This document shows positions 45,458 through 53,358 of a DNA stretch of 64,000 nt, piece after piece; position 1 is the stretch's first letter, and each line of letters starts with the position of its first letter. The stretch comes from Niabella soli DSM 19437. GTDB lineage: Bacteria > Bacteroidota > Bacteroidia > Chitinophagales > Chitinophagaceae. The notes beneath the pieces were generated by a model that worked only from the letters and a program-made list of their open reading frames with translations, did not search any database and had not been told where the DNA came from. The position numbers and the translations under genes were made by a program. Location: assembly GCF_000243115.2 (NCBI RefSeq), contig NZ_CP007035.1, positions 2,852,001-2,916,000 on the forward strand, given 5' to 3'.

Positions 45458-45470
45458 AGGCTTACCTTTG
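45441..45470 (+). promoter_or_regulatory. Promoter of purH
   Basis: TTG (45441-45443), 19 bases, TACCTTTG (45463-45470): a full match to the Bacteroidota consensus, 18 bases before the ATG and overlapping the end of comEC. Confidence 0.6.
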
Positions 45471-45488
45471 CGGCTCCAATTCAATTTT

Positions 45489-47012
45489 ATGAACAAAAAG
45501 ATACAATCTGCACTGATCTCCGTTTTTTACAAGGACGGACTGGAACCCATTGTAAAAGAACTATCCCGGTTGGGCATTATCATTTATTCTACCGGCGGTA
45601 CCCAAAAATTTATTGAAGACCTGGGCATCAATGTTGTTCCGGTGGAACAATTAACCACCTACCCTTCCATATTGGGCGGGCGCGTAAAAACGCTGCATCC
45701 ATCCGTGTTCGGAGGTATTTTGGGAAGAAGGGAGCTGGAATCGGATGTACAGGAGATGGCAGAATACAAAATACCTGAGATCGACCTGGTAATTGTAGAC
45801 CTGTACCCTTTTGAAGAAACCCTGGCCAATACGACGGAAGAAAAACTGATCATCGAAAAGATCGATATCGGCGGCCCTTCTATGATCCGCGCTGCCGCTA
45901 AGAATTTTAAAGATGTAGTAGTGGTGGCAGCAAAAAAAGACTACACTGCCCTGGAAGAATTATTAAAAACGCAGGAAGGCACCACCAGCATTGAGCAGCG
46001 CAAATCCTTTGCTGCAAAGGCTTTTGAGATTGTGGCGCATTACGACGTGGTGATATCCAATTATTTTAACGGCAACAATGGTTCTTATTTTCTACAATCC
46101 GTAAATATTCCCAAAGCCATGCGGTACGGAGAAAACCCGCACCAGGCAGGTACTTTTTACGGCGACCTGGATCAACTGTTCAACCAGTTGAATGGAAAAG
46201 AGCTCTCCTATAATAACCTGGTGGATGTGGATGCCGCCGTGCAACTGATCCGTGAATTCCAGGGAAGCGCAGACACCGTGTTTGCTATTATCAAACATAC
46301 CAATGTATGTGGTGTAGCGGCCCGTGCAATTGTAAGTGAAGCCTGGAAAGATGCGCTGGCCGGTGATCCGGAGAGTGCCTTTGGCGGTGTATTGGTGACC
46401 AACGGTACCGTAGACGAAGCTACAGCAAATGCCATCAATGAAATTTTCTTTGAAGTGCTGATCGCACCTGCGTATGATGAAGCGGCGTTGAATATTTTAA
46501 AGTCGAAGAAGAACCGGATCTTACTGCAATTAAAGGCTGAAGGCTTAACGCAGAACGCTCAAAACAAATCGGTTCTCAATGGTGTGTTGACACAGCAACA
46601 GGATAACGGTAATTATGCAGAATGGAAGGAAGCAGGTGGCCGCGAAGCGACCGCTGCTGAAAAAGCGGACCTCGAATTTGCCAATATTATCTGCAAGCAT
46701 TTAAAATCAAATGCGATTGCGCTGGTAAAAAACAAACAGCTCGTGGGCAAAGGCGCCGGGCAAACCAGCCGGGTGGATGCGGTACGCCACGCATTGGAAA
46801 AAGCAAAACAATTCGGCTTTGATCTGAATGGCGCCGTACTGGCCAGCGACGCCTTTTTCCCTTTTAATGATAGTGTGCAGATTGCGCACAGTGCGGGCAT
46901 TACGGCCTTTATACAGCCGGGCGGCTCTATTCGCGATAAGGATTCTGTTGAATATACCCAGCAAAATAACCTGGCAATGGTAATGACCGGCATGCGGCAT
47001 TTTAAGCATTAA
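45489..47012 (+). CDS. purH: Bifunctional AICAR formyltransferase / IMP cyclohydrolase
   Basis: A 507-aa enzyme for the last two steps of IMP synthesis. The N-terminal IMP cyclohydrolase domain has IYSTGGTQKFIEDLG and GGRVKTLHPSVFGGIL. The C-terminal transformylase has MRYGENPHQAGTFYG, the Lys-His pair in IIKHTNVCGVA, and SDAFFPFNDSVQIAHSAGIT. The start is ATG 45489, 18 bases after a TACCTTTG box. It is convergent with ispG, with a strong hairpin between them. Confidence 0.96.
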   Translation: MNKKIQSALISVFYKDGLEPIVKELSRLGIIIYSTGGTQKFIEDLGINVVPVEQLTTYPSILGGRVKTLHPSVFGGILGRRELESDVQEMAEYKIPEIDLVIVDLYPFEETLANTTEEKLIIEKIDIGGPSMIRAAAKNFKDVVVVAAKKDYTALEELLKTQEGTTSIEQRKSFAAKAFEIVAHYDVVISNYFNGNNGSYFLQSVNIPKAMRYGENPHQAGTFYGDLDQLFNQLNGKELSYNNLVDVDAAVQLIREFQGSADTVFAIIKHTNVCGVAARAIVSEAWKDALAGDPESAFGGVLVTNGTVDEATANAINEIFFEVLIAPAYDEAALNILKSKKNRILLQLKAEGLTQNAQNKSVLNGVLTQQQDNGNYAEWKEAGGREATAAEKADLEFANIICKHLKSNAIALVKNKQLVGKGAGQTSRVDAVRHALEKAKQFGFDLNGAVLASDAFFPFNDSVQIAHSAGITAFIQPGGSIRDKDSVEYTQQNNLAMVMTGMRHFKH

Positions 47013-47034: not shown

Positions 47035-47090
47035 GCCGGTAAAACGGTAAGGCGGTAAAGCAGAGAACATTAGCTTCCCGTTTTACCGGC
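47035..47090. terminator. Hairpin between convergent purH and ispG
   Basis: A perfect 13-bp pairing of GCCGGTAAAACGG (47035-47047) with CCGTTTTACCGGC (47078-47090), loop of 30 bases. No T run follows, so termination is by structure only or the element is a repeat. Confidence 0.55.
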
Positions 47091-47139: not shown

Positions 47140-49164
47140 TTAAGGTTCTATCCAGGCTTCGTTTTCCTTTAGCAGGTTAATGAGCTCTTCTACTGCAATA
47201 TCGCTGTTCACATTCCGCTTTACTACTTCCTTGCCTTTGTACAAGGTGATCTTGCCCGGACCGCTGCCCACGTATCCAAAATCTGCATCCGCCATTTCCC
47301 CCGGGCCGTTTACGATACAACCCATAATGGCGATCTTTACTCCCTTGAGGTGATTGGTAACGGAACGGATCTTTGTAGTGGTTTCCTGCAGATCAAACAA
47401 AGTACGTCCGCAGGAGGGACAGGAAATATATTCTGTTTTTGAGATACGGGTGCGCGTTGCCTGTAAAATACTGAAGGCGGTATTATTCAAAAACTGGTGC
47501 ACGCTGTTATTGTTGAGGTAATTCCTTCCTGAAGAATTAACTATCGACACAGCAGCATCTGCTTTTTGTCCCATCCCCAAACAAATACCATCGCCAAAGC
47601 CATCTAAAAACAAGGCGCCGGTTTCGGTTGCAAGATGAATAAGGTGCTCATCGGCAGTTTCCCAGTTGCTGTTTGTTTCCAGGATAATAGGATGGGTGCA
47701 ATTTTTTTCCTGCAAAAGCATACAAAAACGACGCACGCTTTGCATCGCATTTTTATTATCGCTGCTGAGGAACAATACGGTATTTTTTGCCTGAACCAGG
47801 TTATCTAAAGCGGCATCACTCAACTCCCCGCCGTCAGTGCAATTGACCGATACAAAATTGATGTGGCTATCTCCTTCTGTGTAAGCTTCCGCAGTATAAA
47901 AAGGGAAGCATTTGGTTTTATCTTCCACCAGCAGCCATTGGCTGTGGGGGGTAATTATTTTTAGGGTGCCCGGCAAAGCAAAGCCGATAGCCGGATCATC
48001 CAGGTAAATATAATCCGCCGCCGCATCTGCTATATGCCATTTATCGGTAACCTGATCGTAGGTATAGCCAATGCTTTCGAGGTCCTGTGGCATAACTGTT
48101 TGCCGGTTACTAAAATTTGCAACAACTACAGGAACCTGCCCTCCGCCGATATTGCTTACGGGGGCCGAGATGCGCCGCTTGTATTGGAAAGGGCTGTATT
48201 TTAAGGTTGACAAGTTTAGGGGTTGATAAGTTGATAAGAAATCAGATACTTCTCTGTTAACTTTTAAACTTTTAAACTTGTTAACCTCATAACGCTTCAC
48301 GATATCCCGGCAAACAGGAATTTCCAACTCCGGATCTTCCGTTAGCGACACACGAATCGTATCCCCAATGCCGTCTTCCATCAATGTGCCAATACCTATC
48401 GCCGATTTAATGCGACCATCTTCTCCGTCGCCGGCCTCGGTTACGCCCAGGTGCAACGGATAAATTTCCCCGAACTCTTCATCCATCGTTTTAATAAGTA
48501 AGCGGTAGGCCTGCACCATAACCTGGGGATTGCTGGCCTTCATGCTCAGGATGATCTGATGATAATCTTCACTCCGGGCGATACGCAGGAACTCCATAGC
48601 GCTTTCCACCATTCCCATCGGGGTGTCGCCATAGCGGCTCATGATGCGGTCACTCAGGCTGCCGTGGTTGGTACCGATGCGCATGGCCGTACCATATTCC
48701 CTGCATATTTTTACCAGCGGAGTAAACCGCTCGCGGATGCGGTCGATTTCTTCGGCATATTCCGCATCGGTATATTCGATCTGTTCAAACTTCTTTTTAT
48801 CTACATAATTGCCCGGGTTCACCCGCACTTTTTCCACGATGCGGGCGGCAATTTCCGCGGCATTGGGCGTAAAATGAATATCGGCCACCAGAGGGGTATT
48901 ATAACCTCTTTTATGCAATTCATTTTTAATATTCAGAAGATTCTCCGCTTCTTTTTTGGAGGGGGCGGTAATCCGTACCAGCTCCGCCCCTGCTTCAATA
49001 CAGCGGATCGACTGCTCCACGGTTGCCAGGGTATCCATAGTATCGGTGGTGGTCATGGTTTGCACCCGGATGGGATGATTATTGCCTAATAACAAATCTC
49101 CTATCCTTACTTCTTTGGTTAACAGTCTTTTATATGAAGTGAGTGACGCCGCGTATAATTCCAT
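47140..49164 (-). CDS. ispG: 4-hydroxy-3-methylbut-2-enyl-diphosphate synthase with repeat-derived insert
   Basis: A 674-aa iron-sulfur enzyme of the MEP isoprenoid pathway, of the long, plant-like type. The N-terminal barrel begins VRIGDLLLGNNHPIRVQTMT and includes VADIHFTPNAAEIAA. The C-terminal domain binds the cluster with CPSCGRTLFDLQ and IMGCIVNGPGEMADADFG. Residues 293-320 (around EVNKFKSLKVNREVSDFL) are encoded by an 82-bp palindromic repeat in the linker before SPFQYKRR. The start is ATG 49164; a TATCTTTG box lies only four bases upstream. Confidence 0.95.
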   Translation of the reverse strand: MELYAASLTSYKRLLTKEVRIGDLLLGNNHPIRVQTMTTTDTMDTLATVEQSIRCIEAGAELVRITAPSKKEAENLLNIKNELHKRGYNTPLVADIHFTPNAAEIAARIVEKVRVNPGNYVDKKKFEQIEYTDAEYAEEIDRIRERFTPLVKICREYGTAMRIGTNHGSLSDRIMSRYGDTPMGMVESAMEFLRIARSEDYHQIILSMKASNPQVMVQAYRLLIKTMDEEFGEIYPLHLGVTEAGDGEDGRIKSAIGIGTLMEDGIGDTIRVSLTEDPELEIPVCRDIVKRYEVNKFKSLKVNREVSDFLSTYQPLNLSTLKYSPFQYKRRISAPVSNIGGGQVPVVVANFSNRQTVMPQDLESIGYTYDQVTDKWHIADAAADYIYLDDPAIGFALPGTLKIITPHSQWLLVEDKTKCFPFYTAEAYTEGDSHINFVSVNCTDGGELSDAALDNLVQAKNTVLFLSSDNKNAMQSVRRFCMLLQEKNCTHPIILETNSNWETADEHLIHLATETGALFLDGFGDGICLGMGQKADAAVSIVNSSGRNYLNNNSVHQFLNNTAFSILQATRTRISKTEYISCPSCGRTLFDLQETTTKIRSVTNHLKGVKIAIMGCIVNGPGEMADADFGYVGSGPGKITLYKGKEVVKRNVNSDIAVEELINLLKENEAWIEP
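48205..48286. repeat. 82-bp palindromic repeat inside ispG
   Basis: Left arm begins GGTTGACAAGTTTAGGGG and the right arm ends TTTAAACTTGTTAACC; 24 of 33 arm positions pair. Its GTTAACAAGTTTAAAAG style of iterated units is like that of intergenic hairpins in this window, yet it is translated in frame as part of IspG. Confidence 0.75.
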
Positions 49165-49504
49165 GCTGCAAAGATAGTTATTGTTCATTTGCCGGAAGAT
49201 TCCGATGCAGAAACAGGTACATAACACTTTTCTCAGATATTGCAGGGATTAGCACAGATCATTGTTAGATCGACGCTTTTCTGTAGAGTTCAGTATACTT
49301 CCGCAAACAGCATTTTACAAAGCCCGCTGGCGACTTAACTGAAATTCAAAAAATTTTGTGTGAATCTGAGAAATCTGTGAGAAAAACTAAAGCAACGAAT
49401 AAAAGTAACATTTAATATATTGCTCACAGATTCCACAGATTTTCACAGAAGCTCATCAAACATTTCCTCATTTATTATCTCTCATTCCTTATTTTTAATT
49501 CCCA
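49165..49504. other. 340-base gap with an inverted AATCTGTGAG repeat
   Basis: No gene seen. Arms at 49358-49381 and 49423-49446 (GTGTGAATCTGAG... and ...CCACAGATTTTCAC) pair at 20 of 24 positions around an A+T-rich centre. A further CACAGATC unit lies near 49254. A TATCTTTG box (49176-49169, minus) sits just before ispG. Confidence 0.6.
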
Positions 49505-50774: not shown

Positions 50775-52391
50775 ATGCAACAGGTAGATTTTTTAGTGAT
50801 TGGTACCGGAATTGCCGGCCTTACCTATGCCTATAAAATGGCAAAAAAATTCCCCGAAAAAAAAATATTGGTGCTTACCAAGGCGGCAGCTGATGAAACC
50901 AATACCAAATATGCCCAGGGAGGCGTAGCGGTGGTGAATGACCTGGAGCATGATAGTTTTGAAAAACATATTGAAGATACGTTGATAGCGGGCGATGGTC
51001 TGTGCAACGAAAAAATAGTAGAAATAGTGGTGAAGGAAGGACCGGAGCGTATTGATGAAATGATTGACCTGGGCACGCATTTCGATAAGGGGGCCGACGG
51101 AGATTATAAGCGCGGCAAGGAAGGCGGCCACAGTGAATTCCGCATTCTGCATCATAAGGACGTTACCGGCTGGGAGATGGAGCGGGCGCTTTTAGAAGCC
51201 GTGGAGGGCTGCCCCAATATTGAGCTCCTCAAGCATTGCCTGGTCATTGATATTATTACGCAACACCACCTGGGCTACCTGGTTACCAAAGCAACGCCGG
51301 ATATTGAATGTTATGGAGTGTACGTGCTCAACTTAAACACCAATGAAATTGAGACCATCCTGGCAAAAACAACCTACCTGGCAACAGGAGGCAACGGGCA
51401 GGTATACCGCACCACCACCAATCCCGGCATTGCCACGGGCGATGGGGTGGCCATGGTGTACCGGGCCAAAGGACGGATCGAAAACATGGAGTTCATCCAG
51501 TTTCACCCAACGGCCTTATTTGAAGCCGGGTTGGTAGGGCAGGCCTTTTTAATAACAGAAGCTGTGCGGGGCGACGGGGGTATTTTACGTAATAAAGAAG
51601 GCGAAGCTTTTATGGAACGCTACGATGAACGCAGGGACCTGGCACCCCGCGATATTGTTGCCCGCGCTATCGACAGCGAAATGAAGCGCACCGGTACCGA
51701 ACATGTGTGGCTGGATTGCCGCCATTTTGAACTGGAAAAATTCCTGGAGCATTTTCCCAATATATATGAAAAATGCAAAAGCATCGGCATCGATATTACC
51801 AAAGATATGATCCCCGTATCGCCGGCAGCGCATTATAGCTGTGGCGGTATAAAGGTGGATGAATGGGGGCAGACCTCCATCCGCAATCTGTATGCCGTAG
51901 GAGAATGCAGCAGCACCGGGCTGCATGGCGCCAACCGCCTGGCAAGTAATTCCCTGCTGGAAGCCATGGTATTTGCGCACCGCTGCTTTGAACATGTAGC
52001 GGAAAAAGCACAAACAGGCACGCTGAATGAGCACAATTATGATGGACAGATCCCCGAATGGAATGCCAAAGGCACCATGCAGCCGAAGGAGATGATTCTG
52101 ATCACCCAGAGTCTGAAGGAGCTGCGCCAGGTAATGACCGATTATGTAGGCATTGTGCGGAACAATATAAGATTGCAGCGCGCATCCCGCCGGCTGGACC
52201 TGCTTTGGGAAGAGACCGAACAACTGTACAAATCCAGCAAGGTTTCGCCACAGTTGCTGGAGCTGCGCAACCTGATCACAGTTGGATATCTGGTCGTAAA
52301 AGGCGCCATGTTCCGCAAGGAAAGCAGGGGACTGAATTATAACACGGATTATCCTGAAAAAAGCGCATTGGTGCAGAATGTTGTTTTGTAA
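50775..52391 (+). CDS. nadB: L-aspartate oxidase
   Basis: A 538-aa flavoprotein that oxidises L-aspartate to iminoaspartate for NAD synthesis. The FAD-binding VIGTGIAGLTYAYKMA opens the protein; also present are NTKYAQGGVAVVN, ATGGNGQVYRTTTNPGIATG, QFHPTALF, and the catalytic region PVSPAAHYSCGGIKVDEWG with ANRLASNSLLEAMVF. A TAAATTTG -7-like box is at 50742-50749. nadA and nadC are not adjacent. Confidence 0.96.
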   Translation: MQQVDFLVIGTGIAGLTYAYKMAKKFPEKKILVLTKAAADETNTKYAQGGVAVVNDLEHDSFEKHIEDTLIAGDGLCNEKIVEIVVKEGPERIDEMIDLGTHFDKGADGDYKRGKEGGHSEFRILHHKDVTGWEMERALLEAVEGCPNIELLKHCLVIDIITQHHLGYLVTKATPDIECYGVYVLNLNTNEIETILAKTTYLATGGNGQVYRTTTNPGIATGDGVAMVYRAKGRIENMEFIQFHPTALFEAGLVGQAFLITEAVRGDGGILRNKEGEAFMERYDERRDLAPRDIVARAIDSEMKRTGTEHVWLDCRHFELEKFLEHFPNIYEKCKSIGIDITKDMIPVSPAAHYSCGGIKVDEWGQTSIRNLYAVGECSSTGLHGANRLASNSLLEAMVFAHRCFEHVAEKAQTGTLNEHNYDGQIPEWNAKGTMQPKEMILITQSLKELRQVMTDYVGIVRNNIRLQRASRRLDLLWEETEQLYKSSKVSPQLLELRNLITVGYLVVKGAMFRKESRGLNYNTDYPEKSALVQNVVL

Positions 52392-52411: not shown

Positions 52412-52469
52412 AGGTTCAAAGTTCAACGTTCAATGTTAAACTTTGAACTTTCAACTTTGAACTTTCAAC
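52412..52469. repeat. Intergenic hairpin of GTTCAAAGTTCAACG units
   Basis: GTTCAAAGTTCAACGTTCAA then TGTTAAA faces CTTTGAACTTTCAACTTTGA then ACTTTCAAC. The two halves pair almost end to end, right upstream of the LpxL-like gene. Confidence 0.7.
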
Positions 52470-52479
52470 AAATTATTAA

Positions 52480-53358
52480 GTGTATTATATCGTTTACGGA
52501 TTTTTGTATCTATGTTCCCTGTTACCCCTTCGGGCATTATACCTGCTTGCTGATTTTTTTTACGCCGTCATCTATTATGTTATAGGCTACCGTAAAAAAG
52601 TGGTGTTGGACAACCTGGCCATTGCTTTCCCCGAAAAAACCATTGAAGAGCGCACCCGCATTGCAAAAGATTTTTACCACAAGTTTATTGACTCCCTGGT
52701 GGAAACGGTAAAAGTGCTTTCGGCATCCGATGCATTTTTTGAAAAACGTTTTACCGGCAACTGGGACCTCATCAATCAATATTACGACCAGCAGCGCAGC
52801 GTACAATTGCATTTAGGGCATACGTTTAACTGGGAATGGGGCAATGTGCAGGTGGTGCGCAAGATCAGACACCGGTTCCTTGGCGTGTACATCCCTATCA
52901 GCAACCCCTCCCTTAACAGGGTTTTTAAAAAACTGCGCTCCCGCAGCGGGGCCGTTTTACTGGATGCCGCGCGCATGACACGGGAATTTATGCCCTACCG
53001 CCGCAGTATGTATTGCCTGGGGCTCATCGCCGACCAAAGTCCCGGCCGCGTAGACAAGGCCAAATGGTTCTATTTTTTTGATCGCAAAACGGCATTTACC
53101 ATTGGCCCCGCCAAAAGTGCTATCACCAACAACGCGGTGGTTTTGTTTGCCGCCATTGAACGGGTAAAGCGCGGTTATTATAACGTAACCTTTACGCTGG
53201 CCGAAGAAGATCCGAAAACCAACAGCACAGAAGAGGCGCTTACCAGGCAATTTGTACGCTTTCTGGAGGCCACCATCCGCAACAATCCTGACATGTGGCT
53301 ATGGAGCCACCGCCGGTGGAAACATGAATGGAAGGATGGGGATGAAATGGGAGAATAG
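52480..53358 (+). CDS. LpxL/HtrB-like acyltransferase
   Basis: A 292-aa membrane-associated acyltransferase of the lipid A late-acylation type. The active-site His-x4-Glu is in LHLGHTFNWEW, with an N-terminal hydrophobic segment (YIVYGFLYLCSLLPLRALYLL). GLIADQSPGRVDKAKWFYFF is the second family block, and the C-terminus has MWLWSHRRWKHEW. It starts at GTG 52480, just ten bases after a strong hairpin. It may acylate lipid A or, as in some flexirubin clusters, another lipid. Confidence 0.9.
   Translation: MYYIVYGFLYLCSLLPLRALYLLADFFYAVIYYVIGYRKKVVLDNLAIAFPEKTIEERTRIAKDFYHKFIDSLVETVKVLSASDAFFEKRFTGNWDLINQYYDQQRSVQLHLGHTFNWEWGNVQVVRKIRHRFLGVYIPISNPSLNRVFKKLRSRSGAVLLDAARMTREFMPYRRSMYCLGLIADQSPGRVDKAKWFYFFDRKTAFTIGPAKSAITNNAVVLFAAIERVKRGYYNVTFTLAEEDPKTNSTEEALTRQFVRFLEATIRNNPDMWLWSHRRWKHEWKDGDEMGE

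Follow-up and report, generated by a model that had tools for sequence, protein, structure and literature searches.

Palindromic repeats that code for part of a protein are best known from Rickettsia. Excerpts of two papers describe the Rickettsia palindromic elements as dispersed and as lying also in frame within the genes of proteins that are still active (PMC3733652, PMC6649704). Intragenic REPs of the GTAG and CGTC families are found in several species within genes such as uvrA and uvrB; over half of them are dimers or groups that encode 20–30 residues and are perhaps neutral in linkers, and CGTC repeats are known from five phyla, including Bacteroidetes (PMC3733652, in excerpt). In nematomorph mitochondria, inverted repeats occur inside protein-coding genes, where they are perhaps kept by template switching (PMC6649704, in excerpt). 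Among the open-licence papers listed, we found no report of coding palindromes in Chitinophagaceae or of the ispG linker.

Here we describe a palindrome within the ispG gene of Niabella soli (G000, 4.70 Mb, the own genome in what follows), located in a stretch of 64,000 nucleotides that was analysed as a whole (the window). The 82 bp pointed out in the initial annotation very probably belong to a palindromic repeat, dispersed and mostly intergenic, that entered the ispG linker in an ancestor and now acts as a flexible spacer, as one case of a family-wide habit. Like the Rickettsia elements, the ispG element lies in frame in the gene of a conserved protein and has homologous copies elsewhere in the genome. 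However, its host belongs to another phylum, and the likeness described here is one of behaviour. Several unrelated word families are also involved here, with different ones in one linker depending on the species.

The GTAG/CGTC REPs differ in two respects: neither a tag nor its complement (GTAG, CTAC, CGTC, or GACG) is present in 48190–48300, and the ispG arms are rows of an 8-bp word instead of one short stem. A partnership with a tyrosine transposase, as in the GTAG class, is possible but not clear. The nematomorph palindromes are also inverted repeats within protein-coding genes, but they are perfect and up to 284 bp long (PMC6649704, in excerpt), whereas repeats of the ispG type are imperfect and lose pairing outside ispG. 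Of the features of MITEs (terminal inverted repeats, target duplication, and a parent transposon), inverted arms are present. Novelty seems to lie in the group of hosts, in how many unrelated repeats are involved, and in one linker having been used repeatedly. Coding palindromes are now found in Bacteroidota, from several unrelated repeats and in the same IspG linker across species, and coding repeats are also found in MutS, Mfd, IcmF, and DabA. At one site, the ispG linker brings together inserts that differ in kind and age, from which insert birth, frame choice, decay, and the tolerance of an interdomain linker could be measured.

The palindrome and its reading frame in ispG

The ispG (gcpE) gene occupies 47140..49164 on the minus strand, stop codon included, and encodes a protein of the three-domain type with 674 amino acids. 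The product scores 456 bits with NCBIfam TIGR00612 (cut-off 280) and 5.9e-123 with Pfam GcpE. The open frame extends over 47140–49227 (695 aa, minus strand), and the start was taken at 49164, with which residues 293–320 correspond to 48205–48288. The palindrome sits between the end of the barrel (...DIVKRY) and the SPFQYKRR block. With both arms, the element spans 48199..48292 (minus strand), as judged from the inverted repeat (I1), its folding, and its kin in the genome. The 34-nt arms, 48199–48232 and 48259–48292, are 76% complementary. The 26 nt between them (48233..48258, minus strand) have a core, GAAGTATC(T/C)GAT, in common with the sister species G016. As single-stranded DNA, the element folds at -11.3 kcal/mol, compared with -6.1 (sd 2.0) for 200 dinucleotide shuffles (z -2.6), 2 of which fold equally well. 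The palindrome, originally described as pairing at 24 of 33 positions, is therefore real.

Both arms are rows of the 8-bp word TTNANAAG. Since 8 is not divisible by 3, three words yield eight residues, V-N-K-F-K-S-L-K. In the first arm in coding order (48259..48292, minus strand), the word row GTTAACAAG TTTAAAAG TTTAAAAG TTAACAG starts at 48285, extends to approximately 48254, and translates as V-N-K-F-K-S-L-K-V-N. The second arm (48199..48232, minus strand) contains the words CTTATCAA CCCCTAAA CTTGTCAA, which are read within L-S-T-Y-Q-P-L-N-L-S-T. Among the six frames of the palindrome, the translated one is the sole stop-free frame and lies inside the IspG frame, confirming that residues 293–320 are encoded on the minus strand, as the initial annotation had proposed. 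The element in G016 likewise has exactly one open frame of six. Of the seven copies compared from outside ispG, three are open in one frame and the other four in no frame.

Nearby non-coding hairpins had been regarded as being of the same style. Like the ispG element, they have inverted arms made of short repeated words, but the word differs: clusters of TTNANAAG occur in the 64-kb window at the ispG element only. A hairpin of the 7-bp word GTTCAAA at 52414–52469, in the gap between the ORFs 50775–52391 and 52480–53358, is similar in design to the ispG element but of another family. Upstream of ispG, a 31-nt inverted repeat with CACAGAT words is found at 49354–49450. On the other side of the gene, an inverted repeat at 47035–47090 with 17-nt arms (94% complementary) lies between the convergent ends of ORF 45468–47012 and ispG and looks like their shared terminator.

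Copies elsewhere in the own genome

When the 94-bp element was compared with the own genome, 33 matches were obtained, itself included. The next-best were 3.9e-7 (over 72 bp), 2.0e-4, and 3.7e-4. The longer kin are palindromes of the same words as the ispG element, many of them between genes; many of the weaker matches are short, and some may be due to chance. Twenty-nine other loci were fetched, of which 5 duplicate the place of another. A simple ORF layout of the remaining 24 places put 16 between ORFs, 5 across an ORF end, and 3 within an ORF. The related copies supposed in the initial annotation thus exist, mostly between ORFs. The dispersal of the element, which had been called mobile, is observed, and its mobility is what this dispersal suggests.

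The two-word pattern GTTDAHAAGTTDAHAAGTT gave 12 matches at 10 places of the own genome, ispG included, against 1 for a reversed control. It matched in 13 of the 17 genomes of the genus. In G005, G010, G014, and G015, its count was not or hardly above the reversed control, so the TTNANAAG family is not abundant there. Further palindromes of similar design, made of different words, were seen in a 320-kb sample.

Two of the three own-genome matches within ORFs are only 15–17 bp long. Judged by eye, the third, L032, is an upstream extension; it was rejected as a coding copy, as it lies upstream of the likely gene start. The match at 15223 of L175 was likewise rejected as a second coding copy of the own genome, since by eye it precedes the likely gene start. 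Another copy, L044, reaches the beginning of a 197-codon frame and is a possible coding copy. At L034, L042, and L033, word palindromes lie between genes, and their place is retained in G016; we take these settings to be core operons (atpE-atpF, murE-mraY, and L21-L27).

Structure and variability of the linker

In an AlphaFold2 model of IspG (mean pLDDT 81, 45-row alignment A1), codons 295–317 (48214..48282, minus strand) form a predicted loop with pLDDT below 50, although such a value is expected for a disordered loop and equally for a segment without aligned relatives. The model places these residues between helix 278–290 and the middle domain. Compared with G016, the linker has 70% amino acid identity (pN 0.142, pS 0.615), and the rest of IspG has 94% (pN 0.029, pS 0.438). 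The linker of other relatives is mostly 15–21 residues long and unrelated in sequence, such as TSRADHTPIPAIEQVP, indicating that the element overran an old linker.

The description of the segment as a linker in the initial annotation agrees with this variability and with the low predicted pLDDT. Alignment of IspG revealed no conservation of the segment at the protein level in distant homologs, and copies in the genome were found. Residues 293–320 had also been expected to be absent from relatives. Their sequence is absent, but a clean addition of 28 residues is not seen, since other residues occupy the place.

Age and change within the genus

IspG of the sister species G016 is 93% identical to that of G000, and its gene contains the same element as a far better palindrome (linker L002, z -6.5; 0 of 200 shuffles equal). 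By eye, 12 of the 17 genus genomes have the TTNANAAG array or a decayed form of it in the ispG linker (G006 and G009 are doubtful), G001, G002, and G010 have other repeats, and G007 and G008 have neither. All members with the element or its decayed form have it in the same register. In a tree of the flanking IspG sequence (22 rows; 6 of 19 inner branches well supported), the array is present in all main branches of the genus, and no close relative within the genus was found to have its ispG site empty. The array is best read as one old insertion and not as a fresh jump. The invasion of ispG proposed initially is thus compatible with the dispersed kin but was not recent. In the G002 assembly (L173), the frame is broken downstream of the linker, which seems to hold two repeat types in succession.

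Ten other element sites were sought in G016. Nine were found, each with an element of the same type, meaning that the repeat family was quiet at those places between the two species. At these nine sites outside ispG, words were gained, lost, or changed, and most of one arm was lost at the site L032/L226. Pairing was unchanged at 137 of the 174 pairs compared. Among the changed ones, 10 were altered on one side and still pair, 25 were broken by a one-sided change, 1 was compensated, and 1 was broken on both sides; 24 more pairs were gapped. At L225, G016 bears an extra word array, absent from G000, beside the element that matches L042. This is possibly a growth step.

The position of the element between the barrel and the middle domain would also suit a hairpin that is kept for an mRNA function, for example, slowing ribosomes at the border of two folding domains. 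Between G000 and G016, 8 base pairs of the ispG element have changed and 3 of these are compensated, against 1 of 37 in the other copies, although this count is small, post hoc, and alignment-dependent. Compensatory change as a sign of function of the element in general was rejected, as pairing outside ispG is eroding, and the ispG count serves at most as a lead. We consider an mRNA function very unlikely, because other members of the genus kept the linker and lost the pairing, and the same place in G029 is filled by a non-palindromic tandem array (fold z +0.6).

Other repeats in the same linker

Several types of repeat occupy the ispG linker in other species. By eye, a GGAAGTC-type repeat is found in G001 and, in another genus, in G112 and G217, the linker of G029 is filled by a CGTGAAA tandem array, and a GC-rich hairpin is present in G010. 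The linkers of G187 and G130 contain GTCAATGG arrays, that of G208 a GTTACCAG palindrome, that of G118 a CCGGAACTCTGTTCCGG repeat, and that of G225 a CTCCCCAACCCCTCCGCAGGAGGGGCTT repeat with a near copy in G181; CCCGATAGCTATCGGGA is seen at L132 and CCCCTTTAGGGGTTAGGGG at L091 (all by eye). The repeat-like linkers are the longer ones, plus some short ones. Different linker repeats inside one genus were also recognized by eye in g67, g87, g102, and g106. The simplest cause of this repeated use is tolerance of that linker, not targeting.

Linker DNA has kin in its own genome in at least 12 of 26 genomes, which were hand-picked, so that this is not a family-wide rate. They consist of G000, 7 genomes searched at E<=0.01 (at least 4 with kin), and 18 searched at E<=0.001 (at least 7 with kin). 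The counts are lower bounds, from at most 40 candidates per genome in the former set and at most 18 in the latter. The 7 genomes were mostly picked for repetitive- or long-looking linkers. Among them, the G029 linker has at least 62 further matches in its own genome (best 1.7e-33), that of G016 at least 15 at 13 places, that of G001 at least 13, and that of G010 at least 1 (E 0.008); those of G020, G023, and G026 have none at E<=0.01 among the matches listed. The 18 genomes go back to a search for IspG in at least 194 genomes, at least 190 of which had a match among those listed. Twenty longer matches (2034–2103 nt) were chosen by eye among the matches listed, and G154 and G102 were dropped because the linker could not be delimited; the equally long G208, G210, G198, and G086, as well as split matches without listed coordinates, were left out. 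Kin at E<=0.001 were found for G222, G118, G187, G097, G083, G217, and G112 at least, and the other 11 linkers had none at this threshold among the matches listed.

These data bear on a simpler explanation, in which the linker merely evolves fast and its low-complexity codon usage resembles intergenic repeats by chance. Linkers are hypervariable in the relatives, and own-genome kin are lacking for 14 of the 26 at the thresholds used, among the matches listed. The short flanks give no clear excess of linker matches over controls either, although they comprise little sequence: in 20-kb flanks of the named loci, linkers matched in 6 of 62 loci (2 at E<=0.001, best E 2.5e-6), and 618 control segments gave 39 matches (7 at E<=0.001, best E 1.9e-4). 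However, control ispG DNA of equal length, taken 400 bases upstream and not composition-matched to the linkers, matched ispG only in all 25 genomes, among the matches listed. Moreover, codon use does not account for the inverted word order, nor does this explanation sit well with the many G029 matches or the strong folding of the G016 linker. We regard it as quite unlikely.

Several results weigh against the preferred reading, entry of dispersed repeats into a tolerant linker. Linkers also match other genomes, as the TTNANAAG linker of G016 does in G001, G020, G023, and G010; kin are therefore family-wide and do not prove a local donor. In tracts of five further genomes, linker matches were found for G225, G181, and G208, and none for G122 and G168; controls matched in G225 (best 1.3e-5) and G168. 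Few of 102 linkers fold better than their shuffles; they came from 114 loci, 12 of which were excluded because no linker was obtained. The loci L121, L165, and L168 are on contigs labelled Beijerinckiaceae, Williamsia, and Ignavibacteriales, and their IspG is 60–69% identical to that of G000. The first two labels are probably wrong.

In-frame copies in other conserved genes

Eighteen kin loci outside G000 comprise 10 between ORFs and 8 inside an ORF. Two of these 8 are frames made of the G029 repeat itself, and the other 6 lie in frame inside conserved genes. In-frame copies are present in genes for MutS and a NadR-like ATPase (named by likeness only) in G001, Mfd in G083, a class-III aminotransferase in G118, a phosphopantetheinyl transferase in G097, and TraG in G010. 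The five-genome tracts added one copy in DabA of G225 and two in IcmF of G181. Mfd and IcmF score under the NCBIfam cut-off because their frames are cut by the locus ends.

For two of these genes, relatives lack the insert or have a shorter one. The NadR-like gene was read in all 17 genomes of the genus: G001, G002, and G003 have longer inserts, of the GGAAGTC type as judged from the peptides, and the other 14 have shorter loops. In eight relatives, the match to MutS stops at query position 488–494 and resumes at 520–522 with 0–21 nt between; in nearer relatives, it is continuous with a shorter linker. The G000 aminotransferase is without the G118 insert, by eye.

Possible routes of entry

The element, as inverted arrays of TTNANAAG, would have entered the ispG interdomain linker in an ancestor of the genus, in the single stop-free orientation and frame, and overrun a former linker of some 16 residues. 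Once translated, it would form a flexible connection from the barrel to the inserted middle domain, in which the sequence may hardly matter, so that the copy could persist and decay as protein-coding DNA. In other species, several unrelated short repeats, either palindromes or tandem arrays, would have entered the same linker, and unrelated repeats would have entered linkers or loops of other conserved proteins. We infer from the comparisons above that the change went towards insertion, that it was neutral, and that copying took place.

Alternatively, the repeats may arise in place by slippage and template switching instead of being copied from elsewhere. The number and order of words vary at the same site between sister species, and no TTNANAAG pair was found in 20 fetched Y1-transposase loci, which include only 4 of the 10 own-genome matches; Y1_Tnp matches are present in 6 of 6 genomes. 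Against this, identical words reappear at unrelated positions within one genome and inside other genes, for which local events alone are insufficient. In G000, the frame of a weak Y1 match (L048, 27 bits) has a word palindrome at a distance of approximately 0.3 kb, and in G029, a CGTGAA array lies approximately 0.4 kb from a Y1 gene (L249), so that a Y1 transposase is a possible carrier. An origin in place thus appears unlikely. These two Y1 matches also lower the odds of a broader proposal, in which unrelated intergenic repeats are copied family-wide, without a dedicated transposase, into interdomain linkers of core proteins and rewrite them, with paired changes additionally maintaining the ispG hairpin as a device for folding or pausing at a domain border; we give this combination very little credence. 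In a separate locus (L188:8103-9258), a 385-codon frame contains two near-identical palindromes (ATTGGTCAGACAC-GTCTGACCAATT) in direct repeat.
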